From positions 1-64,000 of the forward strand of contig JAEERC010000041.1 in NCBI GenBank assembly GCA_016285645.1: a DNA stretch of 64,000 nucleotides, in the 5' to 3' direction. The notes under the pieces are model-generated. The model ran no database searches, was not told where the DNA came from, and saw only the letters and a list, made by a program, of their open reading frames with translations. Shown one piece after another: positions 23,499 through 43,224 of this stretch (position 1 is its first letter; every line of letters begins with the position of its first letter). Source of the stretch: Clostridiaceae bacterium (GTDB taxonomy: Bacteria > Bacillota > Clostridia > Oscillospirales > Acutalibacteraceae). Position numbers and translations under genes: made by a program.

Positions 23499-23671
23499 GG
23501 GGTGCGGGTCTCCGGTGGGGGCGAAGCGTCGAAGCGCGTCCTGCGGACGAAACAGCGAGACGCTGAGGTGAGCAAACAGGAGAATTGCGAAGCGCTCCAA
23601 GCGAGCAAGGCGACCTGCGTTTGCGAGGGGGATAATCAGCCGAAAGCACCGACCGAGCCGGGAGGCGAGAC
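23499..23671 (+). repeat. Structured repeat, copy B with an enlarged central arm
   Basis: Starts GGGGTGCGGGTCTCCGGTGG and ends with GCACCGACCGAGCCGGGAGG plus CGAGAC, like the other copies. In place of the short second hairpin it carries about 115 bases of extra sequence. This marks the second hairpin as the place where the element tolerates change. Confidence 0.7.
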
Positions 23672-23798
23672 AACAAAGCGCCTTTTATATGTCCTTACGG
23701 ACGTCCCTGTTGCGGGCGACAGGTTGTAAGAACCTGCCTACGGCAGAACCTTGTTACTCGCGCCGCTCGTAATATGCCCCTACGTAATAACTGAGTTA

Positions 23799-23880
23799 TG
23801 TCATTCCGAGGGAGAAACTTGTTTCGACCGTGGGAATCTCCAAAAAAGATTGCCACGTCGCTTCGCTCCTCGCAATGACA
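23799..23880 (+). repeat. Short inverted-repeat element, 'CEERSDVAI' type, copy 1
   Basis: About 82 bases bounded by imperfect terminal inverted repeats: TGTCATTCCGAGG at the left and CCTCGCAATGACA at the right. Its reverse strand reads in one frame as CHCEERSDVAIFFGDSHG, a spurious peptide known from many genomes that marks this widespread non-coding element. Confidence 0.8.
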
Positions 23881-23923
23881 GAATCGTTTTATCGATTCTG
23901 AGTTCTTACGGATGTCTTGTTGC

Positions 23924-24008
23924 GGCGGGATTGGGGTGCGGGTCTCCGGTGGAGACCTTCGGCGAAGCCGAAAGCACCGACCGAGCCGGGAGGCGAGACC
24001 ATCCCGCC
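23924..24008 (+). repeat. Structured repeat, copy C
   Basis: Outer inverted repeat GGCGGGAT/ATCCCGCC encloses GGTCTCC-GGT-GGAGACC and a second hairpin TTCGGC-GAA-GCCGAA. Compared with copies D and E, both arms of the second hairpin differ but still pair, so the pairing itself appears to be kept. Confidence 0.85.
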
Positions 24009-24125
24009 CTACGGTGTAAATGAAGTTCGTGTGAACAGGCGGGCGACAGGTTGTAAGAACCTGCCTACGGCAGAACCTTGTTACTCGCGCTGCTCGTAAT
24101 ATGCCCCTACGTAATAACTGAGTTA

Positions 24126-24207
24126 TGTCATTCCGAGGGAGAAACTTGTTTCGACCGTGGGAATCTCCAAAAAAGATTGCCACGTCGCTTTGCTCCTCGC
24201 AATGACA
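24126..24207 (+). repeat. Short inverted-repeat element, 'CEERSDVAI' type, copy 2
   Basis: Near-identical to 23799-23880; it lies in the second unit of the 327-base duplication. Confidence 0.8.
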
Positions 24208-24250
24208 GAATCGTTTTATCGATTCTGAGTTCTTACGGACGTCTTGTTGC

Positions 24251-24335
24251 GGCGGGATTGGGGTGCGGGTCTCCGGTGGAGACCTCTGCCGCAGGCAGAA
24301 GCACCGACCGAGCCGGGAGGCGAGACCATCCCGCC
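24251..24335 (+). repeat. Structured repeat, copy D
   Basis: Outer inverted repeat GGCGGGAT/ATCCCGCC, first hairpin GGTCTCC-GGT-GGAGACC, second hairpin TCTGCC-GCA-GGCAGA. Identical in plan and nearly in sequence to copy E at 54829-54913. It truncates the minus-strand fragment at 24336-24428. Confidence 0.85.
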
Positions 24336-25528: not shown

Positions 25529-25670
25529 GGGCTTTGTTTGGGACATAAGACGGCAGGTCCTGCACGGCGAAGCGCCGTGAACCATGTCAGGCGGGGAACC
25601 GAGCAGCATTAAGCGGGCCGTTTTGTGCGATGCAGTTCGCCTGCCGCCTTATGTCCGAGGCAGAGCCCTT
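25529..25670 (+). ncRNA. ffs: Signal recognition particle RNA (bacterial SRP RNA)
   Basis: The domain IV core is clear: ATGTCAGGCGGGGAACCGAG followed by CAGCATTAAGC, with the GGAA-type loop and the asymmetric bulge that binds Ffh. The 5' segment GGGCTTTG pairs with the 3' segment AGAGCCC, and GGACATAAG pairs with CTTATGTCC, so the molecule is a rod of about 140 bases that ends at a T-run (25669-25673). Location just upstream of dnaX is the usual one in Firmicutes. Confidence 0.9.
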
Positions 25671-25696: not shown

Positions 25697-27355
25697 ATGT
25701 ATCAGGCGCTTTACAGAAAATGGAGACCGGGAAAATTCAGCGAAGTGTCCGGCCAGCCGCAGGTCACCCTCACGCTTTTAAACGAGCTAAGGGGCGGCAG
25801 GGTCTCGCACGCCTATCTTTTCACCGGCTCGCGCGGAACGGGCAAAACCTCCTGCGCGAAAATTCTCGCCAAAGCGGTCAACTGTGAAAGCCCCATTGAC
25901 GGCGAACCCTGCGGTCAATGCGAACTCTGCCGTATGGCGGACGACGGCTCCGCCCCCGATATCTACGAAATCGACGCGGCCTCCAACAACGGCGTTGACA
26001 ACATCCGCGACATCCGCGAGGAGGTAAATATCACTCCCCTTCGCGGCAAATACCGCGTGTATATAATCGATGAGGTTCACATGCTCTCACAGGGCGCGTT
26101 CAACGCCCTGCTCAAAACCCTTGAGGAGCCCCCCGCCCATGTTATATTCATCCTCGCCACAACCGAGGTTCACAAACTCCCCGCTACCGTGCTTTCGCGC
26201 TGCCAGCGCTTTGATTTCAAGCGCATCTCCCCCGAGGATATTTCGGCGCGCCTTATTCAGATAGCCGAAGGCGAGGGCGTAAAAATCACCACAGACGCGG
26301 CTGCACTCATTGCCCGTCTTGCGGACGGCGGCATGCGCGACGCTGTTTCGCTGCTTGACCGCTGCTGCGCCAGGGGCACGGATATAGACTCCTCCGTTGT
26401 AAGCAGCGCCGCGGGCATAGCGGGCACAAGGCACCTTTTTGAAATGTCCGGCTATATCTCAAAGGGCGACACTCCCGCCTGCATCTCGCTTGTTGACACC
26501 CTCCACCGCGAGGCGTGCGACATTGAAAGCCTGTGCACGGAGCTGACCGTACACTACCGCAATCTTATGATTGCCAAAACCGTAAAAAACTGCGCCGATC
26601 TCATAATCGTCTCAGCCGATGAGCTCAACGAATTAAAACAGCGCTCGTCCGAATACAAACTCTCAAAAATCCTCTCCTGTCTCGACATTCTTCAGGAGAC
26701 GGGCAAAAGCATAAAGGGCGCCGTAAACAAAAAGATTCTTCTCGAGTCCGCGGTTATCCGTATGTGCTCGCCCGCTCTCTCCGCTTCGGACAATGTTCTG
26801 AATCAGAGAATATCCGAACTCGAAAAAGAGATTGAAAACCTCAAAAAAATGATTTCGGGCGGCACGGTGAAAATCGAGAAATCCCCGGCCCCTGCTGTAA
26901 ATGAGGAAACTCCCGCCGAAAAAGCGGAAACCCCCGCGGAAGAAAGTCCTGCTCCCGTTAAAAATAACGAACCGGAGACCTTTTCCGAGGAAGCGAATGA
27001 AAAAGTCGAAGAATCCGCCTCCCCCGAACCTCAGCAGGAAGCGGAAAACGGCGATTTCACCCTCTGGCAGAACGCGGTTGACCTTCTTCAGAAAAACGAT
27101 ATGCCGCTCTATATGATGCTAAAAGACACCTCCGCCACGGTAATAAACGGCGAAAGTCTCATAATCCACACTGACAATGTGCTGCTTCATCAGTTCATTA
27201 TGGGCGAATCGCACGCAAGGGAGCTTATGATAGCGATTCATCAGGTGACCGGCAAAAAATACAAATTGAAAATAGACGACAAAACTGCAAAAAAAGAAAA
27301 AGCGAAAAACCCGCTTGAGGATTTAAAGAATAAAATAAACCAATTCAATTCCTGA
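25697..27355 (+). CDS. dnaX: DNA polymerase III subunits gamma/tau (clamp loader)
   Basis: ATPase of the clamp loader that opens the beta clamp. 552 residues: MYQALYRKWRPGKFSEVSGQ, Walker A GSRGTGKTS, a four-Cys zinc module (C ... CGQCELC), Walker B YIIDEVHML, SRC motif LSRCQRFDF, then clamp-loader domain III, a Pro/Glu-rich linker (about 395-450), and a C-terminal tau-like domain. Start ATG 25697 follows CAGGGGA; the longer frame begins inside the SRP RNA. No typical frameshift signal for a short gamma form was noticed. Followed by ybaB and recR, as in most Firmicutes. Confidence 0.97.
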   Translation: MYQALYRKWRPGKFSEVSGQPQVTLTLLNELRGGRVSHAYLFTGSRGTGKTSCAKILAKAVNCESPIDGEPCGQCELCRMADDGSAPDIYEIDAASNNGVDNIRDIREEVNITPLRGKYRVYIIDEVHMLSQGAFNALLKTLEEPPAHVIFILATTEVHKLPATVLSRCQRFDFKRISPEDISARLIQIAEGEGVKITTDAAALIARLADGGMRDAVSLLDRCCARGTDIDSSVVSSAAGIAGTRHLFEMSGYISKGDTPACISLVDTLHREACDIESLCTELTVHYRNLMIAKTVKNCADLIIVSADELNELKQRSSEYKLSKILSCLDILQETGKSIKGAVNKKILLESAVIRMCSPALSASDNVLNQRISELEKEIENLKKMISGGTVKIEKSPAPAVNEETPAEKAETPAEESPAPVKNNEPETFSEEANEKVEESASPEPQQEAENGDFTLWQNAVDLLQKNDMPLYMMLKDTSATVINGESLIIHTDNVLLHQFIMGESHARELMIAIHQVTGKKYKLKIDDKTAKKEKAKNPLEDLKNKINQFNS

Positions 27356-27365: not shown

Positions 27366-27707
27366 ATGAAAGCGAGAATACCCAACCAGCCCAATCGCGG
27401 CGATATGATGAAAATGATTCAGGATATGCAGGACAATATGGCCCGCATAACCGAAGAAGTCGAGCAGAGTGAGTTTGTAACCTCCGCGGGCGGCGGCGCC
27501 GTTGAGGCGAAAGTCAGCGGCAAGCACGAACTGCTCTCCCTCACAATCAAACCCGAGGTTGTTGACCCCGAGGATACCGAAATGCTCGAGGATCTCATTA
27601 TGTCCGCGGTCAATGAGAGCATCCGCAAGGCAAACGAAGCCATGGAAAAGGGTATGGAAGAAGCGAAGGGCGGTCTCGGCGGTCTTTCAATTCCCGGCCT
27701 GTTCTGA
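27366..27707 (+). CDS. ybaB: YbaB/EbfC nucleoid-associated protein
   Basis: A 113-residue DNA-binding dimer of the YbaB/EbfC family. The pattern MKMIQDMQDNMARITEEVEQ with the following strand VTSAGGGAVEAKVSGKHELLSLTIKPEVVD and LEDLIMSAVNESIRKANEA is characteristic. It is encoded between dnaX and recR, its normal place; its start is 8 bases after the dnaX stop, and recR begins 3 bases after its own stop. GAGGAGG provides the ribosome binding site. Confidence 0.95.
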   Translation: MKARIPNQPNRGDMMKMIQDMQDNMARITEEVEQSEFVTSAGGGAVEAKVSGKHELLSLTIKPEVVDPEDTEMLEDLIMSAVNESIRKANEAMEKGMEEAKGGLGGLSIPGLF

Positions 27708-27710
27708 TAT

Positions 27711-28310
27711 ATGGACAATTTCGCCGCTCCGCTTGAGGAGCTTATAGATTCATTTGCCTCCCTGCCCTCAATCGGCAGGAAGAGCGCCCAGCGGCTCGCC
27801 TTCCACATGCTTTCAATGGATGACGCCTCGGCGCAGAAGTTCATTGATTCCGTTACAAACGCGCGGTCAAAGATTCACCGCTGTCCGGTCTGCTGCAACC
27901 TGACGGATAAGGATATATGCAGCATCTGCTCCTCTCCCTCGCGCAACAAGAGCACAATCTGCGTTGTCGAAAACCCGAAGGATGTAATAGCCATTGAAAA
28001 AACCCACGAATATAACGGCGTATATCACGTGCTTCACGGCGCAATATCGCCTTTGAACGATATCGGAGTGGAGGACATCTGCGCGAAAGAGTTAATTCTC
28101 CGCCTTCAGGACGATTCCGTAAAGGAAATCATTATGGCAACAAACACCACCGTTGAGGGCGAGGCAACCGCCGTGTATCTCTCCCACCTTTTAAAGCCGA
28201 TAGGCGTAAAAGTCACCCGGCTTGCCTACGGCGTGCCCGTCGGAGCGGATCTGGAATACGCCGATGAGGTAACTCTGGTGAGGGCGATTGAGGGAAGGCA
28301 GGAGCTTTAA
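27711..28310 (+). CDS. recR: Recombination mediator RecR
   Basis: Acts with RecF and RecO to load RecA at gaps. 199 residues: N-terminal helix-hairpin-helix (SIGRKSAQRLAFHML), four-Cys zinc finger (CPVCCNLTDKDICSIC), then a Toprim domain (ICVVENPKDVIAIE) and a Walker-like C-terminal part (LAYGVPVGADLEYADEVTL). It directly follows ybaB and directly precedes the putative replication origin. Confidence 0.97.
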   Translation: MDNFAAPLEELIDSFASLPSIGRKSAQRLAFHMLSMDDASAQKFIDSVTNARSKIHRCPVCCNLTDKDICSICSSPSRNKSTICVVENPKDVIAIEKTHEYNGVYHVLHGAISPLNDIGVEDICAKELILRLQDDSVKEIIMATNTTVEGEATAVYLSHLLKPIGVKVTRLAYGVPVGADLEYADEVTLVRAIEGRQEL

Positions 28311-28317
28311 TAAAAAT

Positions 28318-28562
28318 CCTTCCACATCTTATCCACGTGAAAATGTTAAAACTTTTTCACCGTTCGTTCCACAATCCACCCACAATACTTCAACATTTCA
28401 ACATCACGGTCAGAACAGCCCGTTTTGTTCAACACCGTTTCAACATTCAGACCACTCCCACTCAGCGCTCGAATCCCTTTATTTAAAGCGCTTTCGGCAC
28501 TTTCCCACAAATTCCACAGACTCTACTACTACTACTGTAATATTTATTTCAATTATTCATAC
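28318..28562 (+). other. oriC: Putative replication origin (oriC) unwinding region upstream of dnaN
   Basis: No gene lies between recR and dnaN. The region has DnaA-box-like sequences: TTATCCACG (28329-28337), TTCCACA (28367-28373), TTTCCCACA (28501-28509) and TTCCACA (28512-28518). The last is followed by ACTCT-type bases and five DnaA-trio triplets, CTACTACTACTACTG (28523-28537), then an AT-rich stretch TAATATTTATTTC. In Bacillus subtilis the basal unwinding system has this order and polarity, DnaA boxes, then trios, then AT-rich DNA, just upstream of dnaN. No box is a perfect consensus match, and dnaA is not adjacent. Confidence 0.65.
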
Positions 28563-28579
28563 TCAAAGGAGGATAAACC

Positions 28580-29689
28580 ATGAAATTCGCCTGCAACACA
28601 GCCGAGTTTTCACAGGCATGTCAGAATGTCTCCAGAGCCGCTTCGGGCAAAACATCAATTCCCGCCATAGAGGGTATTTTGATCACCGCTTACAACTCAA
28701 CTCTCACCCTCACGGGCTATGACCTTGAAATGGGCATAACCACGGTTATTCCGTCAAAGAACGATGAGGACGGCTCAATAGTATTGAACGCCCGTATGCT
28801 CAGCGACATTTTACGCAAGATGCCCGGTGAATTTGTCTCAATCGAGAGTGATTCAAGGCAGATAGCCGTAATCAAGAGCGGAGATGTCAAATATCAGCTC
28901 ATCGGTATTGAAGCGGGCGATTATCCCGAGTTACCCTCCGTGTCAAACGGCTACCCCGTCAATGTTGACCGCGAGATACTCAAGGATATGATTCAGAAGA
29001 CCATATTCAGCGTATCTGTTCACGACGCCAAAATCGTTCACACCGGCGTAAAATTCGAGGTCGGCGAAAACAGCCTGCGCCTTGTAGCCATTGACGGCGT
29101 GCGTCTCGCTCTGAGAAACGAGACAATAACATATTCAGACGAGCCGCTTTCATTCGTAGTGCCCGCCAAAACCCTTTCCGAGGTTGTGAAACTCATGGGC
29201 GAGGGCGAAGGCAACATTACAATTAATGTAGGCAAGCGCCACATCATATTCGAAATAGGCACATATTCGATTATTTCACGACTTCTCGACGGCGAGTTCG
29301 TTCACTATGAGGCGTCCTTCCCGAAGGTTTCAAACACCGTTGTAAGAGTAAACACCCGCGCCCTGCTTGAAAGCATTGACCGCGCTTCGCTTATTATCAC
29401 CGACAGAATCAAATCCCCCGTAAAATGTGTATTTGCGGATAACCTTATAAATATTTCGAGTGAGACCGCTATAGGCAGCGCTAACGACAAAATAGCGGCT
29501 GATATTCAGGGTGAAAACGTCACTCTCGGCTTCAACAACCGTCTTCTTCTTGAGGCGCTCAGAGTATGTGACACAGACGAGGTCCGCATTCTCATAGCCA
29601 ACAAGGCGGCTCCCATTCTCATCTGCCCGCCCGAAGGCGAGTCCTTCATCTTCCTCATCTGCCCCGTAAGACTCAAAAATGAAAATTAA
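28580..29689 (+). CDS. dnaN: DNA polymerase III beta clamp
   Basis: Sliding clamp that tethers the replicative polymerase. 369 residues with the three repeated clamp domains; visible landmarks are MKFACNTAEFSQACQNVSRA, LTGYDLEMGI, GDYPELP, FSVSVHDAKIVHTGVKFEV, DGVRLAL and the C-terminal ICPPEGESFIFLICPVRL. ATG 28580 follows AAAGGAGG with ideal spacing. Its final 11 bases overlap the start of yaaA, so the two are translationally coupled. Confidence 0.97.
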   Translation: MKFACNTAEFSQACQNVSRAASGKTSIPAIEGILITAYNSTLTLTGYDLEMGITTVIPSKNDEDGSIVLNARMLSDILRKMPGEFVSIESDSRQIAVIKSGDVKYQLIGIEAGDYPELPSVSNGYPVNVDREILKDMIQKTIFSVSVHDAKIVHTGVKFEVGENSLRLVAIDGVRLALRNETITYSDEPLSFVVPAKTLSEVVKLMGEGEGNITINVGKRHIIFEIGTYSIISRLLDGEFVHYEASFPKVSNTVVRVNTRALLESIDRASLIITDRIKSPVKCVFADNLINISSETAIGSANDKIAADIQGENVTLGFNNRLLLEALRVCDTDEVRILIANKAAPILICPPEGESFIFLICPVRLKNEN

Positions 29690-29918
29690 AGTAAAAGTCG
29701 CCGAAAAAAAGCGCGTTTCAAAGCATATCGACACCGATTTCATAAAACTCGACTCCTTCCTCAAAATGTGCGATGCCGTTCAGACGGGCGGCCACGCGAA
29801 AATCGTCATTCAGGATGAAGAGGTGCGCGTAAACGGCGAAATCTGCACCCAGCGCGGCAAAAAACTGCGCAGGGGCGACAGTGTCGAATATAATAATACA
29901 ATATATACATTGGACTAA
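29679..29918 (+). CDS. yaaA: S4-domain RNA-binding protein YaaA/RlbA
   Basis: A 79-residue S4-type RNA-binding protein. The motif KLDSFLKMCDAVQTGGHAK followed by EVRVNGEICTQRGKKLRRGD is the typical S4 fold. It lies between dnaN and recF, its standard place in Firmicutes, overlapping dnaN by 11 bases and ending 3 bases before recF. A role in ribosome function is suggested for relatives. The first 20 residues are basic. Confidence 0.92.
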   Translation: MKIKVKVAEKKRVSKHIDTDFIKLDSFLKMCDAVQTGGHAKIVIQDEEVRVNGEICTQRGKKLRRGDSVEYNNTIYTLD

Positions 29919-29921: not shown

Positions 29922-31025
29922 ATGAAGGTAATCAGCCACAGCGCAGACGGTTTCCGCAACCTTAAAAACACCGATATTCAGGCGCACCCCTCAATGAATA
30001 TCATCTTCGGCGAAAACGGTCAGGGAAAAACCAATATAATTGAAAGTATATGGCTGTTTACCGGCTGTTACAGTTTCCGCACGCACAAAAACGCCGAACT
30101 TGTGTGCAAAAACTCCCCTTTCGCGCGTTCACAGCTTGTTTTTTCATCAAATGAGCGCGAGCAGACCGCGCAGATGAAGATTACCAAAATCAAGGAGATA
30201 AAGCTTAACGGAGCGGACTGCACCTCCCCCCGCGAGATGATAGGCAAATTCAGCTGTGTCGTTTTCTCGCCCTCAACCCTGTCAATAATTCAGGGCGCCC
30301 CCGGCGAAAGAAGACGCCTGACCGATGTGGCGATAAGTTTAATAAAACCGAACTACGCCGTGCTTATGTCACGCTATCTGCGCACCCTCGACCAGCGCAA
30401 CGCCTTAATCAAAAAAATCAGCGAAAAGAGTTATCCCCTTTCAACGCTCGACGCCTGGGACGAAGCGCTCAGCACGCTCGGAGCGGCTGTAATCTCCTAC
30501 CGTCTCGACTATATTGAAAAATTAAAGGAAAAAGCCGCCGCTATTTACGGCGGAATAAGTTCATCGCGTGAAAAATTCGCCCTCGAATACTCGTTTTTGA
30601 AGTCAAAGGGCGAAACCGATGAAAAACGAATAAAAGAGATACTCTTCAACGACCTTGTCGCGTCGCGCGAAGCGGATTTAAGGCGCCTGTACACGGCGGG
30701 CGGTCCGCACAGCGACGACCTCATAATCACCCTGGACGGCGGTGAGGCGCGCGCCTACGGCTCACAGGGTCAGAAGCGCTCCTGCGCCCTCGCTCTGAAA
30801 CTCGGCGAGGCAATGGTTATGGAAGAGGTTACGGGCGAAGCCCCCGTAGTTCTGCTCGACGATGTTATGAGCGAGCTTGACGAGGGCAGGCAGAGATTTA
30901 TTTTAAACTACCTTGACGCCTGGCAGGTTTTTATCACCTGCTGCGACCCCTCCGCCCTGCTGCGCAGCGAAACAGGAAAAATATTTGAGGTCAAAAACGG
31001 CACGGTCGAGGAAAAAACAGTCTGA
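29922..31025 (+). CDS. recF: DNA replication and repair protein RecF
   Basis: SMC-like ATPase that works with RecO and RecR. 367 residues: Walker A FGENGQGKTNIIE, signature-like YGSQGQKRSCALALKLGE, Walker B VVLLDDVMSELD and the switch region QVFITCCD. The central region is the usual RecF arm (LRTLDQRNALIKK). It begins 3 bases after yaaA. The next gene is a RemB-like protein, but gyrB, which usually follows, is missing. Confidence 0.96.
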   Translation: MKVISHSADGFRNLKNTDIQAHPSMNIIFGENGQGKTNIIESIWLFTGCYSFRTHKNAELVCKNSPFARSQLVFSSNEREQTAQMKITKIKEIKLNGADCTSPREMIGKFSCVVFSPSTLSIIQGAPGERRRLTDVAISLIKPNYAVLMSRYLRTLDQRNALIKKISEKSYPLSTLDAWDEALSTLGAAVISYRLDYIEKLKEKAAAIYGGISSSREKFALEYSFLKSKGETDEKRIKEILFNDLVASREADLRRLYTAGGPHSDDLIITLDGGEARAYGSQGQKRSCALALKLGEAMVMEEVTGEAPVVLLDDVMSELDEGRQRFILNYLDAWQVFITCCDPSALLRSETGKIFEVKNGTVEEKTV

Positions 31026-31325: not shown

Positions 31326-31481
31326 ATGTTCAGCTACGCGATTGTTCTTTTGAACATCATCATTTCAAACCTCACGGGCAAAGACACCGAGCTTCTTCTG
31401 TTCTTTACGGAAATGAGCGCCAAAGCCCAGGAGGGAATCGCCTACCTTGTAAACGAAGCGGTCAATTTTCTCGGTTTTTAA
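31326..31481 (+). CDS. 51-residue peptide after remB
   Basis: ATG 31326 stands behind AAAGGAG, 11 bases after the remB stop. The product starts MFSYAIVLLNIIISNLTGKD and continues with TELLLFFTEMSAKAQEGIAYL, so it is a short, mostly hydrophobic or amphipathic peptide ending NFLGF. The tight spacing and strong ribosome binding site indicate translation with the recF-remB genes. No family is recognised. Confidence 0.6.
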   Translation: MFSYAIVLLNIIISNLTGKDTELLLFFTEMSAKAQEGIAYLVNEAVNFLGF

Positions 31482-31591
31482 CCGAAAATCACGGTCTTCC
31501 GCACTTGAAATGACCTGAATATGCGTTCAGAGTGCTGCGCACGCACTCTCACCGCAATTTTTATTAACAATTAAATAATAAACAAACACAA

Positions 31592-31622
31592 ACGGCACGG
31601 ATATATCCGTGCCGTTTTGTTT
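31592..31622 (+). terminator. Rho-independent terminator of the dnaX-remB block
   Basis: ACGGCACGGAT and ATCCGTGCCGT form a perfect 11-base stem with a 2-base centre, followed by TTTGTTT. It ends the plus-strand replication-gene block. A smaller hairpin AGAGTGC/GCACTCT lies upstream near 31530-31550. Confidence 0.8.
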
Positions 31623-31731
31623 AATCGTAAATGAGCAATGAACAATTAAGCGGCGCAAAGCGCCGGATTGTATACGCAGGGGCGGATATCATCCGCCCGC
31701 CAATTGAGGCGCGGTTTTTTCAGTAACGGGC
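31623..31731. repeat. Short repeat-derived spacer
   Basis: Contains small palindromes such as GGCGCAAAGCGCC and GGGCGGAT-ATC-ATCCGCCC, as in other repeat stretches of the window. No gene. Confidence 0.45.
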
Positions 31732-31761
31732 AAAAAAGCACGGCGGATAATCTCCGCCGTG
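31732..31761 (-). terminator. Rho-independent terminator of the ABC exporter genes
   Basis: CACGGCGGA and TCCGCCGTG form a perfect 9-base stem 6 bases after the stop at 31767, followed on the minus strand by C and six T. Confidence 0.88.
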
Positions 31762-31766
31762 AATCA

Positions 31767-33491
31767 TTAAATATCCTGCCCCTCAAGGGCTATTATTTTA
31801 TCTGCCGCCGAAAGTATGGCGCTGCGGTGCGAAATTACAATCACCCCGCGGGTGAGCGATATTGTTTTAAGCCGCTCAATCAGGAACTTTTCATATTCCC
31901 CGTCCACATGCGAAAACGATTCGTCCAGAATCAGAAATCTGCTGCCGTGGTAAAGCGCCCTGGCAATAAGAAGTGTCTGAACCTGCCCCGATGAAAGGGA
32001 ACCGGGACTGTATATTTCGCCCTGTGCGTTTTCAAAAATCTTATCCAACATCAGAAATTTTGTGACTTCGCGGATTTTTTCCTCATTCACCCGGCTGTCG
32101 GGATAGGCGATATTACGCTGTAATGACAGACCGTGTATTTTTGCCTCCTGCGAGATTACCGAAAACAATTCGCGGTATTCACGCGTATCAAAGCTGCCGA
32201 TATTGATATTGTTGAGCGCAATAGACCCGCTTTCGGGAGTGTAAAGACGGAGAATGAGTTTTATCAGGGTTGTTTTGCCCGCCGCCGTGGCACCGGTAAC
32301 AACGGTTATGCCGCTGTCGGGAATATCGGCGTCAAAATGTTCAATTATTTTTGTGCGTCCTGTCATATAGCGGAATGAAACATCCCTGAGTGAAAGAGTG
32401 TTTGTTTCGCCCAATACAGGTTTGTTGCCGCCGCCGTCCTCATCGGGAGCGTCAAAATAATCATAAATGTTCATAAGCGCGCCGCCGAACAGACGAAAAA
32501 CGGTTTTTGACGACGAAATCTGAGTAAGCGGTGTTTCCATACGGCGAAGATAAATGATAACCGAGAGCAGAACACCTATTGTGATGCTGCCGCTGTTGAG
32601 CTGTGAAGCGGAAAGAAAGACGGCAAGCGCTATTGTAATTCCCGAAAACAGAACCGCTGCGTGCTGCCTTACAGCCGAATACTTTCTGCCGTTATAAATC
32701 CCTGCCGCCGCGGCGCCGTCCGATGAAGCGAACCTTTCTTTTATATATTCCGAGCTGCCGGCCACCCTGAGAAGGGAGGCGTTTCTGTAAAACTCGCCGA
32801 TATCCGGCACGGGTTGCGCTGTTTTGGCTCCGAGTGCCGCGTTTGTTTCAAAATAAGAGACAATCAGTTCAAAAATGACTGCGCACGGAACGGTCAGGCA
32901 GGCAACGAGTCCGAGAATAATGCTTTTTGTAAAAATCATCACAAGTATCGCGCCCGTCATAAATACCGCGGGCAGGGTCTGTGTAAGAAGCAGACTGAAA
33001 CTCTGATTCAGAATGTCAATCTTACCTGTCGCTGTTTCAAATGTTTCCGATTTTGATTTTATATCAAAGCGTTCAACGCGGATTTTTGCCGTTTTTTCAA
33101 AGGAGCGCACGCGCAGGGAGTCGGCAACGGACGAACAGCAGGATGCGGCAAATGAGTTCTGAAGGTAGGTTATAACCGTATATGCGGTTACCGCCAGGCA
33201 GAGATTGACAATAAGCCGCGTAAGAACAGCGCTGTCGATATCAGGTTCGCCCGAGGCAAATGACGAGATGATTGAAGCGACAAAAAGGTCAATAAGGTCG
33301 CTTATAATCAACGGTATCTGCACAAATACGAATGCCGAAAGCACGGAAAACAGAACAATAAACGCAAGGCGAAGCCACTGTTTTTTGTAATCGTGGAAGA
33401 ATCTGAAATAGGGAGGAGCGAAAACGGTGTCGGAGCCCCCTGCCCTTTCCGCGTCGAAATTGACGGAAAAAGCCGAGCTTTTATTTGCCAT
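31767..33491 (-). CDS. ABC transporter half, exporter type
   Basis: A 574-residue half-transporter: six-span membrane domain (about 35-330) and ATPase domain. Walker A is VTGATAAGKTT, the signature is LSSGQVQ instead of LSGGQ, Walker B and catalytic Glu are FLILDES, and the switch His is in VIVISHRS. The non-standard signature and the partner's altered Walker B suggest a heterodimer with one degenerate ATP site, as in many Firmicute exporters. It starts 18 bases after the partner gene. Substrate unknown; no peptide precursor gene was seen beside it. Confidence 0.88.
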   Translation of the reverse strand: MANKSSAFSVNFDAERAGGSDTVFAPPYFRFFHDYKKQWLRLAFIVLFSVLSAFVFVQIPLIISDLIDLFVASIISSFASGEPDIDSAVLTRLIVNLCLAVTAYTVITYLQNSFAASCCSSVADSLRVRSFEKTAKIRVERFDIKSKSETFETATGKIDILNQSFSLLLTQTLPAVFMTGAILVMIFTKSIILGLVACLTVPCAVIFELIVSYFETNAALGAKTAQPVPDIGEFYRNASLLRVAGSSEYIKERFASSDGAAAAGIYNGRKYSAVRQHAAVLFSGITIALAVFLSASQLNSGSITIGVLLSVIIYLRRMETPLTQISSSKTVFRLFGGALMNIYDYFDAPDEDGGGNKPVLGETNTLSLRDVSFRYMTGRTKIIEHFDADIPDSGITVVTGATAAGKTTLIKLILRLYTPESGSIALNNINIGSFDTREYRELFSVISQEAKIHGLSLQRNIAYPDSRVNEEKIREVTKFLMLDKIFENAQGEIYSPGSLSSGQVQTLLIARALYHGSRFLILDESFSHVDGEYEKFLIERLKTISLTRGVIVISHRSAILSAADKIIALEGQDI

Positions 33492-33509
33492 GTTTACGCC
33501 CCCTTTCCT

Positions 33510-35570
33510 TTATTGTAAACTGATTGTTTTATCGGCGAACTCATCCGCCCCCGGCGAGTGGGTCACAAGTATGACAATTGAATTGCCGAAATTCCTTTTT
33601 ATGTTGCCCGCGACCCGTCTGAAGGTTTCACTGTCAAGAGAACTCAGGCAGTCATCGAGCAGATATATATCCGCTTTTTTGGAGAGCGCGCAGGCAAGCG
33701 AGATTCTGCTCCTCTGCCCGCCGCTGTAATGCTCGCCGCCGTTTGAAAGAAAGGTGCCGAGCGCCGTGTCCGTGTCTCCGAGAAAACCGCAGGCGGCGGT
33801 TTCCAGCGCCGTGCCGGCGTTTTCCTCACGCCCGCCGTAAAACAGCATGTTGCTCCGTAAGGTATCGGAGAAAATAACGGGCTGAGTCGGGGCGAGCGAC
33901 ACAAATTTTTCCGGATAGTTTTCATCAAGATTTTCAATGTTTCCGCCGTTTATGAGTATATTGCCGCCGTACACTCCGTTTTCGCGCAGAAGCGCGTTTA
34001 TAAGCGATGTCTTTCCGCTGCCCGAGCTTCCGTTTATCACAACAAACTCACCGCGGTTTGCCGTGAAAGATATCTCCCTTGAGTTTTCGAAAAGTCTGAC
34101 ACGGTCAAACACAACCGATTCAACATTTGCGGCGGTCTGTTCCCCGTGCGATATCCGCGGTTCCTCCTCATCGAGCACTGCAAACACTTTTTTATACTGT
34201 ATAAGCGCCTCCGGTCCGAAAAGAACGGTCGCGCCGAGGGTTGTCAGCGAGGTTATCACGATTATGGCAATCTGCATATATGCCACAATATCGTCCATTG
34301 TAAGCCCCGCGCTGAGCATTCTGTTTCCACTCCACAGAACAACGGCGGCAGTGAGGATATTCACAAAAAATCCGATGGAGCCCACAGCGAAATACACGCT
34401 TTTCATTACCGAGCGCTCGTCTCTGCGTATTCCGGCGGAAGCGTTTGCAACCTTTTCCTTTACAAAGTATTCCCCTTTTTCCGCGCGTATCTGAATAATG
34501 TCCGAAAGCTGTTCCTCAATGGTTTCGCTGTATTCGAGATAATTTTCATCCATACGGAGGTATTTTCCGTAGGAGAGTTTGTAAACAACAAAAATCACAA
34601 TGAACACGGCAACGGCGCACAGCAGTATGAGCAGACTTATAAAACGCTGATTTATAAAGGTCATTATTCCGCCTATAAGAATGACCGAAACGGAATAGAC
34701 AATAAGCGAGATTAAGAAATTGAGCGATATTCCCACCCGCGCCACGCTGTTCTGATATATATCCCGTATCTCCTCGGCGGAGAATTTTACTTTTCCGTTT
34801 TCCGAAAACGAAAAAAGTCTGTTTCGCAGTTCGCCGCGCAAAGAGGATTCCGCGTCCGTTGAGCATTTCGCCGTAAAAATCCCCGAAACAACCGCGCACG
34901 CGAACTGCAGAGCCGAAACGGCAATGATTTTAATAAGTGATTTTGTAAGATAAGCCGACTGTACCGCGTCGCAGTCCATACCGGCATCGGCGTAAATATA
35001 CGGCAGAAACACAGCCGCCACCTGCTGCTTGAGAAGTCCGTCCGCCCGCTGAGCCGCCTCATAGCACTCCGCCCGGTCGCTTTCGGTAAGATTCAGCCGT
35101 CCCGCGTAAATCAGAAGCGAGCGCATAGAGATTTTTTCAGCAAACATATTGTATGAATCGAGACTCTTGAGGTTTGTCGTTTTGTTTATCTCATAGAGCG
35201 CGCAGGTCGCCGCGTCACAAAACAGTTCGCGGGCTGTCTGCGTATCGGCGTTATCCTTAAGCCAGAAGCATTTTTTGTTTGTGGCGTATTTTCCGTTTGC
35301 GGAATACGGGCTTTCGTCCTTCAGTTCGTAAAGCCCGCTGAGCTGTGCCCCCTTTTCTTCGGGAAGAACAAGCAAAAACAGAGCAAAAGCGTCCCGGCTC
35401 ATACCGATGGGATATGAGTCGGGATAACCTTTACCCTGCAGTCCTGTACCGACGGCTCTGCCTATAAGCACGGGAACCGCGAGGCAACATACTGCCTGCA
35501 GCACGGCAAGAACCAGCGCGGTAACGCAGATTATTCTGTTTTCCCTGAAGCTTTTCAGGAGGCGTTTCAT
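33510..35570 (-). CDS. ABC transporter half with large extracellular insert
   Basis: A 686-residue half-transporter. After span 1 (IICVTALVLAVLQAVCCLAVPVL) comes an insert of about 150 residues before span 2, predicted outside the cell (YELKDESPYSANGKYATNKK and following). The ATPase domain has Walker A GSSGSGKTS, signature YSGGQRSR, Walker B YLLDDCLSSLD (Asp in place of catalytic Glu) and switch His VTHSPG. Together with the 574-residue neighbour it should form a heterodimer. Such extracellular inserts occur in a Clostridia-specific group of exporters. ATG 35570; the stop is 18 bases before the partner. Confidence 0.85.
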   Translation of the reverse strand: MKRLLKSFRENRIICVTALVLAVLQAVCCLAVPVLIGRAVGTGLQGKGYPDSYPIGMSRDAFALFLLVLPEEKGAQLSGLYELKDESPYSANGKYATNKKCFWLKDNADTQTARELFCDAATCALYEINKTTNLKSLDSYNMFAEKISMRSLLIYAGRLNLTESDRAECYEAAQRADGLLKQQVAAVFLPYIYADAGMDCDAVQSAYLTKSLIKIIAVSALQFACAVVSGIFTAKCSTDAESSLRGELRNRLFSFSENGKVKFSAEEIRDIYQNSVARVGISLNFLISLIVYSVSVILIGGIMTFINQRFISLLILLCAVAVFIVIFVVYKLSYGKYLRMDENYLEYSETIEEQLSDIIQIRAEKGEYFVKEKVANASAGIRRDERSVMKSVYFAVGSIGFFVNILTAAVVLWSGNRMLSAGLTMDDIVAYMQIAIIVITSLTTLGATVLFGPEALIQYKKVFAVLDEEEPRISHGEQTAANVESVVFDRVRLFENSREISFTANRGEFVVINGSSGSGKTSLINALLRENGVYGGNILINGGNIENLDENYPEKFVSLAPTQPVIFSDTLRSNMLFYGGREENAGTALETAACGFLGDTDTALGTFLSNGGEHYSGGQRSRISLACALSKKADIYLLDDCLSSLDSETFRRVAGNIKRNFGNSIVILVTHSPGADEFADKTISLQ

Positions 35571-35599
35571 CTAAAAAAGCCCTTTCTGCCGCGAGTCAA

Positions 35600-37540
35600 T
35601 TACCAGTAATAGTCATAACCGCCGTCTGTCGGATTGTTGTATTCATATTCGCTCTTTACTTCGGTGGAAACATATCCCCCGATACCCGAGGTACATACTA
35701 TAACCTGATTTTCCATTCCGTAGTATGATTTTGAGGTGTCAACGCCGCTGAGTTTTAAAAGAGATCCGCCCGCCGCGGCTTCGTTGAATGTAAGCCCTGA
35801 ATCGAGGGTGAGGGTTATTTTTCCGTTCCCGTCAACACCGATTGTAATAAGCCCCGTCGCGCCGTAGGCGCTGTTTGTGAACCTGAGATTGCCGAGACTG
35901 AACTGCGCGTCCGCTGTTTCTTCCAGTTTGCTCACCGCGGAATTAAACGCGTTGTAGGAATCGTAATAAGCGTGGTCCTCAACAATTGATGAGAGATAAA
36001 TCGAAGTTGTAAAACGCGGGGCGAGGAACATCACGGGGCCGTCTTCATCGGGAACATCTTTGGCGTTGTCTACTTTATAGGCGTTATCGGCCTTTTTGAA
36101 CATCTTTTCCGCTTTGCTGAAATCATCTTCGGTAATTTTGGTGCCGTTAATATCGGTTACCTTGAGTGAGAATATTTCCTCATTTCCGTATTTTGCCGTT
36201 ACGGAAGCAAGGCGGTTGTTTTCAATTTCAACATGACCTTTTAAGGTTTCGCCGTCGAAATCGTCAAGATAATATTGTGATTCTTCACACAATGAGGCAA
36301 ACAGGGAACCGGGAAGAGCCTTTTTGATTGTTTGAGAGTTTTTGAAAAAGTCATAAAAGGCGTCGGCGGTATCTCCGCCGTTAATCTTATAGTCAAAGGA
36401 ATTGCCGGAGCGGTCCTCTGTGTCAATTTCAACCGCGTCCTCGGGAAGCTCGGCAAGAAAATCCGCCGCCTGCGTGAACGCGTCGTTGACGGTCACTCCC
36501 TCGGGATTGATTTTTACAAACTCCTCATCGGTTATGCCGAACTGCGTTTTGCCGCGCTCCACGGCGCTGTTGTACGCGGCGCACATGCAGTCCGCGAAGG
36601 TGTTCAGCGCATCGCGGTTTACGCGGTTGTCCTTGATGATTGAAAAATAGCTGCTTTCAAAATTGCTGTCGGTAATCAGTTCATTGTAGGTGTCAACCGT
36701 GAAGTTATAATACGCGACTCTCGAGTTGTTTCCCTTGTAGCTGTCTTCCATCAGATCAAAGTAGGCGTCTTCAAGGTCGGCTCTGTGGTCACAGAGTTCC
36801 TTGACATCCACAGACCAGTTGCTGTATCCGCCGTCTTCCGCGACAATAAGTCTGCCGTCTGTCATCGCGGCGCGGCCCAGAACTTCTCCGTCTTCTTTTA
36901 CTTCAATATAAGCCTGCGTTGACGGAATATCCTTGCCGAAAGTTACCTTGCCGCTGACTTTTATTTCATGATAAACTTCACATTCAAACGAAAAACTCTT
37001 CGTGTTGAAAATGAGATTGTCCGCCGCCGCGAAGGCGTTCATAAGCGGATAATTCTCATCCTTTTTGCCCATTTTCTTCGCCGCTTTGGCAAAGGCGTTG
37101 TCGCTCGCGTATCCGTTGCCGAACAGGTTTGACAAAAACGGGATGTGCGGCCCTGCGAAAATACCCGTGAGAACCAACGCAACAACCAGTACGCAGGCAA
37201 TAACGGGCGCAAGCGGGAATTTGCCCTTCTTGCCGTTCTTTGCCTTCTTCGCTTTCGCCTTTTTACCGGGCGGAGCCGGAGGTACGGGCGGACGGTTAAT
37301 TACATAATTCCCCTGCCCCTGCTGCTGATATCCGCCGTATTGCTGAGCGCCGTAGCCGTTCTGACCGCCCTGCTGATATCCGTTGTTCTGATACTGCTGA
37401 TAACCGCCGAACTGCTGATTCGCGTTTTGCTGATAGCCGTAAACGCCGGGATTCTGAACGGGAGCCTGCAACGCGCTACCGCAAAACGGGCATACGGCAA
37501 GTCCGTCGTCAACCTGAGAACCGCATTTTCCGCAAAACAT
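35600..37540 (-). CDS. Zinc-ribbon membrane protein with Q/G/Y-rich linker (paralogue 1)
   Basis: A 646-residue protein. A zinc ribbon (CGKCGSQVDDGLAVCPFCG) is followed by a low-complexity linker of Gln, Gly, Tyr and Asn (about 35-85), a Pro stretch, a Lys-rich segment, one membrane span (APVIACVLVVALVLTGIFAG), and an extracytoplasmic part of about 500 residues, rich in Asp/Glu and without a recognised domain. The extracytoplasmic part shares its plan and short stretches with 37710-39617. ATG 37540 has AAAGGAG with 7-base spacing; TTG 37546 is less likely. Its stop is 29 bases before the exporter gene, so co-transcription is plausible. Confidence 0.75.
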   Translation of the reverse strand: MFCGKCGSQVDDGLAVCPFCGSALQAPVQNPGVYGYQQNANQQFGGYQQYQNNGYQQGGQNGYGAQQYGGYQQQGQGNYVINRPPVPPAPPGKKAKAKKAKNGKKGKFPLAPVIACVLVVALVLTGIFAGPHIPFLSNLFGNGYASDNAFAKAAKKMGKKDENYPLMNAFAAADNLIFNTKSFSFECEVYHEIKVSGKVTFGKDIPSTQAYIEVKEDGEVLGRAAMTDGRLIVAEDGGYSNWSVDVKELCDHRADLEDAYFDLMEDSYKGNNSRVAYYNFTVDTYNELITDSNFESSYFSIIKDNRVNRDALNTFADCMCAAYNSAVERGKTQFGITDEEFVKINPEGVTVNDAFTQAADFLAELPEDAVEIDTEDRSGNSFDYKINGGDTADAFYDFFKNSQTIKKALPGSLFASLCEESQYYLDDFDGETLKGHVEIENNRLASVTAKYGNEEIFSLKVTDINGTKITEDDFSKAEKMFKKADNAYKVDNAKDVPDEDGPVMFLAPRFTTSIYLSSIVEDHAYYDSYNAFNSAVSKLEETADAQFSLGNLRFTNSAYGATGLITIGVDGNGKITLTLDSGLTFNEAAAGGSLLKLSGVDTSKSYYGMENQVIVCTSGIGGYVSTEVKSEYEYNNPTDGGYDYYW

Positions 37541-37664
37541 AAACAATCTCCTTTGCCGCAGAAATTATTATAAAGTATAACAAAATAATTATAATATATC
37601 GGTTATTATTTTTCAAGGCGAAAACCGCAAAAACAAAAAGCGCGGCCCGCAGCCCGTAAACGGC

Positions 37665-37697
37665 AAAAACTCCCGGGCTGTATGCGCAGCCCGGGAG
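37665..37697 (-). terminator. Strong rho-independent terminator after paralogue 2
   Basis: CTCCCGGGCTG and CAGCCCGGGAG form a perfect 11-base stem, 12 bases beyond the stop of the gene at 37710-39617, followed by TTTTT on the minus strand. It separates the two paralogues into different transcripts. Confidence 0.9.
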
Positions 37698-37709
37698 AAA
37701 TCATGTCCG

Positions 37710-39617
37710 TCAGTTCGATGTCATATTAAATGTATAACCGCCGTAGCCGTCAGGCGTTATCGTTATTGTATAAACCGTATTCGAATGAACGGTTTTTGAC
37801 CGGTCAATTCCGCAGACATTGATAAAATCATCCCATGAGGATAATTCACTGCCGTAGGGAAGGTAAAGTCCCGTCTGCGTAACGGCAATCGGTCCGTTGC
37901 CGCCCGCCGCCTGTACCGTAACGGTAGCCGTGCCCGTGGTTGCGATGTTGCCGAGAGCGCACTCCGATTTTACTACTGCCAGCACATCCTCAGCCACTGA
38001 AGCGATATTGGCATCTCGGGATGTTTGAACAGCTCGGACATATTGCGGCGCAATTATAGCGATGGGGGCAAGACGCGGAAGGAAATACATGCCAATCGTA
38101 GGATTTATATTTTCAATGTCGTTATAAATGTCGTCATAATCCTCAATTTCATTTTTATCATCACATTTTTTATACTTTTTCTCAACCGCTTTATAATCGT
38201 CTTCGCTTATCTTTGTGCGGTTTATGTCGGAAACGGTCAGCGAGAGAACCGTTTCATTGTCATATTTCACGGTCAGCGATTTGAGATAGTTCTTTTCAAT
38301 CTCAACATGTCCCTTTAATGTGCCGTCGGCATATCTCTTGACATATTCAAGTTCCTCAACCATATCTTCAAACCATTCCGCGGGGAGGGCTCCCTTTATT
38401 TCCGGGGAATTTTTGACATAGTCATAAAGCGCGTCCGCCGCGTCATTAAGGTCGATTTCATAGTCAAAGGAATTTGCCGAGCTTCCGTCCTTCTCAATCT
38501 CAACAACATCCTCGGGCAGCGTGGCAACAAAGTCCGCCGCAAGCGAATAGATGTCAACAAAACTAAGACCTTCGGGATTTACTTTGTACGGTTTAAGATC
38601 CCCATTACTTTCTGCCATGCGCTCGAGCGTTGAATTGTATGTTGAGCTTGCCGTTGCCACCAGATAATTCAGAGCGTCGCGGTTTAAGCCCTTGTTGCTT
38701 ATAACAGAGAACCAGTATTCGTCAAGTTTGCCGCCGTCGTCTGTACTGTTATAGATATCAACCATTTCGTTGAACACATCAACAACGTTTTCTTCCCTGG
38801 CCTGTTTTTCCAATTTGTCCCAGAGTTCATCCTCATATTTTGCCCTGTTTTCATAGAGCTTGGCTACATTTACAAGAGCACCTTCACCGTCAGCAACGCC
38901 ATAGTCCTTATCATAATAATAAGCGGTAAAAACGCCGTCAAACATAGCGCCTTCATAGCAATCGTCCCAATCGGTTTCGCATGAAAAAGCAAGTTTATGT
39001 TTAGGAATGCTCTCGCCCCAGACAACCCTGCCGGAAACCTTCGCCTCGTCATAAGCCTTTGCTTCAAATGTAAAACTCTTCGCGTTGAAAAGCAGGTTGT
39101 CAACCGATGCCAGCGCGTTTACGAGCGGATAGTTGTTGTCCTTCTTCTTCATCTCTTTTGCCGTTTTGGCAAAGGCGTTGTCCTTCGCGTAACCGGTCAT
39201 TATGTTCGGCGCAACAACAATTCCCGCGGCAATCAGCGCAATAACAAGCACGCAGGCAATAATCGCCTTGAGCGGGAACTTGCCCTTTTTGCCGTTCTTT
39301 GCCTTTTTCGCTTTTTTCTGAGGCTGCGGCGCGGGCGCGGGCGACTGATTAATTACAAAACTCCCCTGCCCCTGCTGCTGATATCCTCCGTACTGCCGGT
39401 TCGCGTTTTGCTCAACGCCGTATGCTTCCTGCGCGTTCTGCTGATAGCCGTAACTGTTCCCGTACTGATTCTGCTGATTCTGCGCCTGTGCGTAGCCGCC
39501 GAAGGCGTCCTGCTGCCGGTTGCCGGCTGAAAAATTAAAATTCTGAACCGGTGTGTCGCAGTTCGGGCAGACTGTCAGACTGTCATCAATCTTTTTGCCG
39601 CAATGTGAACAAAACAT
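37710..39617 (-). CDS. Zinc-ribbon membrane protein with Q/G/Y-rich linker (paralogue 2)
   Basis: A 635-residue paralogue of 35600-37540. Zinc ribbon CSHCGKKIDDSLTVCPNC, Q/N/Y/G-rich linker, then shared stretches YGGYQQQGQG and KKAKNGKKGKFPL, one span (IIACVLVIALIAAGIVVA), and a long acidic outside region. Segments such as TVSDINRTKISEDDY and LKGHVEIEKNYLKSL match the sister protein. ATG 39617 is behind AAAGGAG. It probably sits in the membrane with the ribbon inside and the large domain outside. Not recognised as a characterised family. Confidence 0.75.
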   Translation of the reverse strand: MFCSHCGKKIDDSLTVCPNCDTPVQNFNFSAGNRQQDAFGGYAQAQNQQNQYGNSYGYQQNAQEAYGVEQNANRQYGGYQQQGQGSFVINQSPAPAPQPQKKAKKAKNGKKGKFPLKAIIACVLVIALIAAGIVVAPNIMTGYAKDNAFAKTAKEMKKKDNNYPLVNALASVDNLLFNAKSFTFEAKAYDEAKVSGRVVWGESIPKHKLAFSCETDWDDCYEGAMFDGVFTAYYYDKDYGVADGEGALVNVAKLYENRAKYEDELWDKLEKQAREENVVDVFNEMVDIYNSTDDGGKLDEYWFSVISNKGLNRDALNYLVATASSTYNSTLERMAESNGDLKPYKVNPEGLSFVDIYSLAADFVATLPEDVVEIEKDGSSANSFDYEIDLNDAADALYDYVKNSPEIKGALPAEWFEDMVEELEYVKRYADGTLKGHVEIEKNYLKSLTVKYDNETVLSLTVSDINRTKISEDDYKAVEKKYKKCDDKNEIEDYDDIYNDIENINPTIGMYFLPRLAPIAIIAPQYVRAVQTSRDANIASVAEDVLAVVKSECALGNIATTGTATVTVQAAGGNGPIAVTQTGLYLPYGSELSSWDDFINVCGIDRSKTVHSNTVYTITITPDGYGGYTFNMTSN

Positions 39618-39665
39618 AAATACTCTCCTTTAATATATTAAACTTAATTAAAACCACCGAGTTGA

Positions 39666-40685
39666 TTATGCGTTTTCAAAACTCAAATAAAAATATTTGT
39701 CTGTCGTGTAGCTTTCTCCCGTGTTCTCGTTTACACAGGTAACCTTGAATTTCAGTTCGTCAATGCTGTCGTAGGTTTCCGCAATCGTAAAATACACGGT
39801 TTTGCTCTCATATGCTCCGAAATACTGCGGAGCGTAGGTCAGAGACTGAATGTATTTTTCGCCGTTTATGTAAATATCCTCAAGTGAAATCCGTACATTC
39901 GCGTTCTGCTTATTCTCGATATTCACACAGAGCAGACTGTAGTAATACTGCATGTCGGGTGTTGTTCCGAGGGAATCGAAGGTCATTTTGAAATAATCGG
40001 TTACAAAGGAATCGCCTTCGACCTTTTCGCTGTCCTGCGCCTCTTCGCCGGCAAACAGCCCGCCGCCGGAGTCCGCGCTTCCGGCCGAGCCCGAGCCGCC
40101 GCTTCCGAAATGGACTATAAGAGCAACAACCGCAACAACCGTCAGCAGTGCCACCGCCGCTACCGCGATTGTCGGCAGCACGCTTTTGCGTTTCTTGCCC
40201 GCCTTAATCGCGGGCACAGCCGCCGGTTCGGGAGTTTTCACCGCCGCCGAAGGATAAGCCGGAGCGGCAAACATTGCCTGTGCCGCGGGTTTTGCCGCGG
40301 AAGGAGCGGTGTAGTTCCCGGTAACGGGTTCCTGCCTTACGAACGCGGGCTGAGGATTCGTTTTTGCCTGAGCGGGAGCGTCCGGCTGACCGCCGAAGGT
40401 CAACTGCGTCATTTTCGCGATTTCCTTTTCAAAGGCGTCCGCCCCGAGTGCCTCGGTCCGGTCCTGCGCGTTTTCGGCAGCGGGAGTGTGTGCCTCAGCC
40501 GCAGCCGTTTCCTTCGCGTTGAATCTGTCCGCCTCGGTTTTCATTTTGAAAGCGCATTCCCTGCAGAGGTTATATGTTTTTGATTTGCCGTTGTTTTCCG
40601 CGGTCACGGCAATCAACATGTCAAACGGCTTTTTACAGGAGTCGCAGACCCCCGCCCCGCCTTTCAGATAGCTGAGATTAATCAA
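39666..40685 (-). CDS. Zinc-binding membrane protein, third member of the cluster
   Basis: A 339-residue protein. The N-terminus has two Cys pairs (CDSCKKPFD and CRECAFKMK) that suit a zinc-binding module. A long Ala/Pro/Glu-rich linker follows (about 60-165), then one span (VLPTIAVAAVALLTVVAVVALI), a Gly/Ser-rich turn (FGSGGSGSAGSADSGGG) and an outside domain of about 120 residues that looks like an Ig-like/DUF4352 fold (YYSLLCVNIENKQNANVRIS). The start is TTG 40685 behind GGGGGT; the next Met comes after the first Cys pair, so TTG is preferred. 48 bases separate it from paralogue 2. Confidence 0.7.
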   Translation of the reverse strand: MINLSYLKGGAGVCDSCKKPFDMLIAVTAENNGKSKTYNLCRECAFKMKTEADRFNAKETAAAEAHTPAAENAQDRTEALGADAFEKEIAKMTQLTFGGQPDAPAQAKTNPQPAFVRQEPVTGNYTAPSAAKPAAQAMFAAPAYPSAAVKTPEPAAVPAIKAGKKRKSVLPTIAVAAVALLTVVAVVALIVHFGSGGSGSAGSADSGGGLFAGEEAQDSEKVEGDSFVTDYFKMTFDSLGTTPDMQYYYSLLCVNIENKQNANVRISLEDIYINGEKYIQSLTYAPQYFGAYESKTVYFTIAETYDSIDELKFKVTCVNENTGESYTTDKYFYLSFENA

Positions 40686-40989
40686 AATAATACCCCCGTG
40701 AACGGTAAACTTTAATTTCCTTTACCTATTTTTTCAGAAAAACGGAAAAAATGCAATACCTTTAATAAAACATTATCATAATTATTAATGCAATCTTAAG
40801 AACTCGGAACCCGCTCAGGGCAGATTCGATTTATGTTTTATCGCAAAAATAATAAATTATAAAAGTTTTGTGTTGAAAGGTATTCGGTGGTCAATAATAA
40901 ATGTAATAAAATATGTATTATAATAAAATCTTTTTTCGGCAAGACACACAGCCCCGCTTTTGCGGTTTAAACCGCGAAAGCGCACAGAC
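40686..40989. other. AT-rich intergenic region with a long hairpin
   Basis: About 300 bases without a gene. AT-rich, presumably holding the promoter of the minus-strand zinc-ribbon genes. A hairpin built from CGCTTTTGCGGTTT and AAACCGCGAAAGCG (40954-40981) is present and could stop transcription. Nothing else is recognised. Confidence 0.5.
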
Positions 40990-41023
40990 AAACAAAACCC
41001 CGTGTTCAATCAATAAACACGGG
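40990..41023 (-). terminator. Rho-independent terminator of the par-cupin transcript
   Basis: CCCGTGTT and AACACGGG (40999-41006 with 41016-41023) lie 19 bases after the cupin stop, with the T-rich GTTTTGTTTG following on the minus strand. Confidence 0.75.
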
Positions 41024-41392: not shown

Positions 41393-42271
41393 TCAGTCCT
41401 CCAGCTGTCCGAGAACCCTTGCTATGGCGGCGAGGTCCTCGTTATTGTAAAAATCTATTTCGAGCGTGCCGCCCTCTTTTTTGCCCGAGCCCGAAATCTT
41501 TACCTTTCTGTGAAGCGTGTCTCTGAGCGAAAGCTCAACCTCATCGTAAAACGGTATTTTCGCTGTTTTCTTTCCGGCTTTCTTTTTCGGGGCGGCGAGA
41601 AGCGATTTCACAAGCGCCTCCGTCTGCCTGACCGAGAGTTTTTTCGCGATTATTTCACGCGCCGCCTCAACGATTGTTTTGTCGTCATCCAGCGCGGCGA
41701 GAGCCCTCGCGTGGCCTGCGCTCAACTCCCCTGCCGCCACGCTCTCAAGCACCGTGGCGGGCAGTTTCAGAAGCCGCAGCGCGTTCGCGACCGCGGGTCT
41801 CGATTTGCCGACCTTTTCGCTCACCTGCTCCTGAGTCAGGTTGTAGTCCTCCATAAGTCTGCGCATGCCCTGCGCCTCTTCAACGGGGTTTAAATCCGCC
41901 CTTTGCAGGTTTTCAACAAGCGCGAAAACCGCGGCGTCCTCGTCGGTCATCTCCTTTATAACCGCGGGCACTTCGCTGAGCCCCGCCGCTCTCGCGGCTC
42001 TCCAGCGCCTTTCACCCGCCACCAACTGGTAGCTTCCGTCCGGCATCGGGCGGACAAGCAGCGGCTGAAGCACGCCGTGACTGCGTATGCTCTCGGCGAG
42101 CGCCGTCAGCTCCTCCTCGTTGAATTTCTTTCTCGGCTGTTCCTTGTTCGGAGTTATTTCGAGAATTTTCAGTTTTACCGCCGCCGCGGAGGAAAGCTCC
42201 TCGACCGCGTTGTTTATAAACAGGGTGTCAAATCCCGTGCCGAGACCGCCCTTTTTCTTTGCTGCCGCCAT
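41393..42271 (-). CDS. parB: Chromosome-partitioning protein ParB
   Basis: CTP-dependent clamp that loads at parS and spreads along DNA. 292 residues: N-terminal CTPase domain with GERRWRAARAAGL and ENLQRADLNPVEEAQGM, a helix-turn-helix (YNLTQEQVSEKVGKSRPAVA), and a C-terminal dimerisation domain that is Lys-rich. It follows parA by 12 bases. Two perfect parS sites lie at 43171-43186 and 44648-44663. Confidence 0.97.
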   Translation of the reverse strand: MAAAKKKGGLGTGFDTLFINNAVEELSSAAAVKLKILEITPNKEQPRKKFNEEELTALAESIRSHGVLQPLLVRPMPDGSYQLVAGERRWRAARAAGLSEVPAVIKEMTDEDAAVFALVENLQRADLNPVEEAQGMRRLMEDYNLTQEQVSEKVGKSRPAVANALRLLKLPATVLESVAAGELSAGHARALAALDDDKTIVEAAREIIAKKLSVRQTEALVKSLLAAPKKKAGKKTAKIPFYDEVELSLRDTLHRKVKISGSGKKEGGTLEIDFYNNEDLAAIARVLGQLED

Positions 42272-42283
42272 ATCAGCGCCTCC

Positions 42284-43051: not shown

Positions 43052-43111
43052 TTAATCATCCTTTTTTACGTTTTTCGGGCGGAAAATCATCTTTTTCACG
43101 CCGCAAAATGA

Positions 43112-43117
43112 ATTATA
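43112..43117 (-). promoter_or_regulatory. Possible -10 element of the parA promoter
   Basis: TATAAT on the minus strand about 60 bases before parA, in AT-rich DNA. No good -35 match was seen, so this is tentative. Confidence 0.4.
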
Positions 43118-43209: not shown

Positions 43210-43224
43210 TTCATTCTGTTGTGC

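Follow-up and report, generated by a model that had tools for sequence, protein, structure and literature searches.

In Bacillus subtilis, the basal unwinding system (BUS) of the chromosome origin is incC, located between dnaA and dnaN (PMC6669920; PMC8287927). Box-bound DnaA seeds an ATP-dependent oligomer along a run of DnaA-trios, opening the AT-rich DNA (PMC6669920). In C. difficile, dnaA lies between oriC1 and oriC2, both of which are required for melting in vitro, and the origin context rnpA-rpmH-dnaA-dnaN is given as conserved in Firmicutes (PMC7561715). Other arrangements are known. Cyanobacterial oriC adjoins dnaN rather than dnaA (DoriC 10, PMC6323995; Ori-Finder, PMC2275245), and oriC of E. 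coli is separate from dnaA (PMC8287927).

We analysed a 64,000-nucleotide window from the draft genome of a Clostridiaceae bacterium, in which recR, not dnaA, precedes dnaN. The recR–dnaN spacer (28311–28579, forward strand) is, from its sequence and from comparison across the genus, very probably the unwinding core of the origin, of the incC/oriC2 type, left with dnaN when a rearrangement removed dnaA. As in incC, tandem DnaA-boxes are followed by a short spacer, 3'-GAT-5' trios and AT-rich DNA, with dnaN next and the same polarity; unlike incC, recR occupies the place of dnaA, the boxes are weaker (in this genome) and dnaA lies elsewhere. The oriC2 region of C. difficile has an almost identical trio run, CACCTACTACTATTACTACTATGA, immediately ahead of dnaN (PMC7561715), but here dnaA does not stand between origin parts and no oriC1 is at hand. 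The position of oriC beside dnaN with dnaA elsewhere recalls the cyanobacteria; those are, however, an unrelated lineage with a TTTTCCACA box, whereas the change seen here falls within a family that mostly keeps dnaA and dnaN together. The E. coli origin is also not at dnaA, but has a weak BUS score and another layout, in contrast to the standard trio type found here. A dnaN-side origin with a distant dnaA is already known from cyanobacteria, while separation of a trio module from dnaA within this Bacillota clade seems undescribed: literature searches, limited and of incomplete coverage, returned no published account of this dnaA/dnaN-origin split.

Layout of the recR–dnaN spacer

The spacer lies in a run of forward-strand genes comprising dnaX (25697–27355; NF004046), ybaB for a nucleoid-associated protein (27366–27707; PF02575), recR (27711–28310; TIGR00615), dnaN for the DNA polymerase III beta clamp (28580–29689; Pfam PF00712, PF02767 and PF02768), a gene for a small S4-domain protein (29679–29918; PF13275) and recF (29922–31025; PF02463), whose homologs occupy the corresponding position in relatives. 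Within the spacer, a distal DnaA-box-like sequence, TTATCCACG (28329–28337, one mismatch), is followed by a tandem pair consisting of the better TTTCCCACA (28501–28509, two mismatches) and AATTCCACA (28510–28518, three mismatches), all on the forward strand. The 4-bp spacer GACT (28519–28522) leads to CTACTACTACTACTG (28523–28537), which is unique in the genome. Its complement, 3'-GATGATGATGATGAC-5', reads as four perfect 3'-GAT-5' trios and one GAC, which still obeys the NAN rule, so that the run corresponds to the DnaA-trio consensus. The first trio is 13 bp from the better box and 4 bp from the second. A stretch of 79% A+T (28538–28571), the presumed unwinding region, separates the trios from dnaN. 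The five consecutive trios lie exactly where the earlier note had placed them, and the AT-rich stretch and dnaN follow as it described. A scan of the spacer for promoters and terminators found none.

The note had also likened the order and polarity of these elements to the B. subtilis system, and the published rule for BUS elements (PMC8287927) bears this out. The rule specifies a DnaA-box with ≤2 mismatches, a second box with ≤4, a spacer of 0–16 bp and ≥3 NAN trios, mostly 3'-GAT-5'. At the spacer, the tandem boxes carry 2 and 3 mismatches, the gap is 13 bp from TTTCCCACA or 4 bp from AATTCCACA, and the trios number five (four GAT, one GAC). When 180 kb of this genome were scanned by this rule on both strands, the spacer site ranked first with a score of 7; the runner-up scored 4. 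The sequence CTACTACTACTA occurred once in the whole 2.63-Mb draft assembly, as did its reversed letters. The looser pattern CACA-N2-14-CTANTANTANT matched here only, twice with overlap; read backwards as a control it gave five matches, making this pattern alone weak evidence. The several DnaA-box-like sequences described in the earlier note were only marginal in this genome. Forward boxes with ≤2 mismatches numbered two in the 260 bp before the trios, where 1.0 was expected (P 0.28); pooled over 30 genus members, the corresponding stretches contained 116 against 26 expected.

Conservation of the trio array and location of dnaA

The trio array was found 53–148 bp upstream of dnaN in 30/30 dnaN loci of the genus, with recR next upstream in every one of them. 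Absence of the motif upstream of dnaN in close relatives, which the earlier note had named as grounds for rejecting its proposal, was looked for; all 30 carried it, and the note's view that chance hardly accounts for the run is upheld. In array variants of genus loci, for example CTACTATTACTACTA and CTACTACAACTACTA, almost all triplets keep their middle base. On alignment of the genus loci by their arrays, the box, spacer and trio columns were far more conserved than the columns downstream of the array. The place, polarity and spacing of boxes and trios were retained beyond the genus in many other genera, where most relatives carry the same array in the dnaA–dnaN gap. The genera of four further genomes (G087, G063, G014 and G048) share the synteny seen here, with recR preceding dnaN and dnaA on a separate contig. 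As to this recR–dnaN order, which may have arisen once or repeatedly, a tree of DnaN forced at least two changes and a DnaN+RecF tree allowed a single one (p-AU 0.13).

The dnaA gene of this genome lies on another contig (C60). Downstream of it is ftsY, identified by sequence, and upstream are rpmH-rnpA-yidD in divergent orientation. The two genes were on different contigs in 39/39 genus members having both, all of them drafts; in G165 the contig extents place dnaA and dnaN at least ~295 kb apart. The bipartite layout of Bacillota, with dnaA between two box regions, is therefore not found here, dnaA being on contig C60. We examined the regions upstream of 27 genus dnaA loci, namely the 350 bp upstream of dnaA in this genome (L001) and 26 others. 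None contained trios. Boxes numbered 38 against 37.3 expected, that is, chance level (four in this genome alone), so the genus shows no box cluster of the kind that marks the dnaA-upstream part of a bipartite origin. In linked relatives, the corresponding regions were enriched, with 48 boxes against 24.6 expected. Disappearance of box enrichment where dnaA left the origin suggests, from these sequence counts, that dnaA autoregulation may have weakened. The conserved array, its place in the dnaA–dnaN gap of linked relatives and the location of dnaA elsewhere together support the earlier proposal that the origin lies directly downstream of recR and not at dnaA. Contig C23 of G001 carries both dnaA (at 35 kb) and dnaN (at 66 kb), on opposite strands and with 30 kb between them; the two genes may have come apart independently there.

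GC skew and alternative origin positions

Cumulative GC skew, which the earlier note had suggested as a check, gave a divided result. A clear minimum of the contig falls at 43432, in the gap separating parA from rsmG and 14.9 kb (~15 kb) from the trios, and the skew on either side is opposite in sign regardless of gene direction. The 20-kb skew step at the trios of this contig was unremarkable. Both observations count against an origin at the spacer, as do the near-chance boxes of this genome and two relatives, G172 and G187, in which the minimum does not fit the position of the array. The offset is partly attributable to a lineage-specific island of ~9.6 kb between recF and parB (31400–41000, reverse strand), which holds two ABC transporter genes and two neighbouring zinc-ribbon paralogs. 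One of the ABC transporter genes (33510–35570) had two distant matches in 44 other genus genomes, and almost every genus member, even the nearest, lacks it. With 31401–41000 left out, 5.25 kb separated the minimum from the start of dnaN.

In most of the relatives compared, the trio element is associated with the GC-skew switch. The minimum lay 1.2–6.8 kb from the array in 7/9 genus relatives: at ≤1.3 kb in G164, G173 and G015, at 4.1 kb in G145, and at 6.4–6.8 kb in G165, G155 and G186, of which G155 and G186, being short contigs, add little. With this genome included, proximity of minimum and array gave a Fisher p of 0.003, a rough figure that assumes uniform positions. This comparison left out G087, G133, G001 and G063. 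The minimum was 38 bp from dnaN in the linked relative G009; the linked control G103 had a local minimum inside the dnaA–dnaN gap, within an asymmetric overall profile. All genus genomes are drafts, so the skew profiles are those of contigs and not of whole chromosomes, which also counts against the proposal.

The active origin could alternatively lie at or near the skew minimum (~43.4 kb), with the dnaN-side trios a relic or serving only dnaN regulation. The clear sign change independent of gene direction favours this, as does a parS-like TGTTTCACGTGAAACA (43171–43186) nearby, next to parB and parA (41393–43051, reverse strand). Nevertheless, we regard it as unlikely. Trios are absent from the parA–rsmG gap, its boxes number just three, each with two mismatches, and a small ORF occupies much of it. 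The rsmG–parA junction is far from the minimum in G015 and G009, where the minimum is at or near the trios, and in this genome the lineage-specific island parts recF from parB. A relic, moreover, would not retain its array in 30/30 genus members. A second perfect TGTTTCACGTGAAACA site was noted at 44648, inside mnmG.

An origin beside dnaA, as in typical Bacillota, with the dnaN-side element out of use, is less likely still. It would agree with the Firmicutes context described as conserved (PMC7561715) and with dnaA still adjoining rpmH here, and a local skew step does occur at dnaA in G165. The skew minimum, however, is not at dnaA in this genome, G163 or G165, and the 27 dnaA loci have no trios upstream and boxes at chance level. 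It is barely credible that the trios are a trinucleotide repeat that arose by chance within an unremarkable dnaN promoter: slippage produces such runs and box density is near chance in this genome alone, but the place, polarity and box–trio spacing are retained in 30/30 genus members and many other genera, and variants such as those above are not expected from slippage alone.

Proposed mechanism and rearrangement of the origin region

We favour the recR–dnaN spacer as the unwinding core, and by analogy with B. subtilis incC we infer that DnaA binding, unwinding and initiation take place there. DnaA would bind the tandem boxes (28501–28518), from which an ATP-bound oligomer would extend along the complementary strand over the trios (28523–28537). 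Stretching of that strand by the oligomer would open the AT-rich DNA (28538–28571) toward dnaN, and the helicase would be loaded there. The DnaA of this genome aligns along its length with PDB chain 8btg_A (E 6e-108), which we take to be B. subtilis DnaA. In the alignment, RDHTTV is retained in the box-binding domain and I190 of the chain reads Val.

In an ancestor of the genus, which may also have given rise to a few neighbouring genera, a rearrangement may have carried off dnaA together with rpmH-rnpA-yidD and put dnaX-ybaB-recR ahead of the trio element. With its gene moved away, DnaA would act from a distance, at an origin of one part, whereas B. subtilis and C. difficile have an origin region on either side of dnaA. 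It is conceivable, though somewhat less than probable, that dnaA has gone from the origin for good, with a one-part origin, genus-wide loss of box enrichment at the dnaA promoter, and a DnaA supply uncoupled from early duplication of its own gene. In that case, initiation would have to be controlled otherwise than in B. subtilis. The whole genus and some neighbouring genera split the rnpA-rpmH-dnaA-dnaN context, and the trio module remained with dnaN; the split can serve as a natural experiment on what part of an origin defines it and whether a two-part layout is needed. Methods that assume an origin at dnaA, such as genome rotation and coverage-based estimates of growth rate, would err here, by at least ~295 kb in G165.

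Other features were noted around the spacer. A gene for the small SRP RNA (RF00169) lies at 25551–25649, just 5' of dnaX, and a 327-bp unit is present in almost two tandem copies (97% identity) at 23638–24335, with a 34-bp part occurring three times. The block pbp2-minD-mnmE-mnmG-rsmG-parA-parB is found to the right of recF and inverted in the window (41393–51197), and to the left of dnaX in G015 (L075–L080 on contig C11). This difference in placement indicates that the surroundings of the proposed origin have been reshuffled within the genus, with recR-dnaN-recF remaining fixed.
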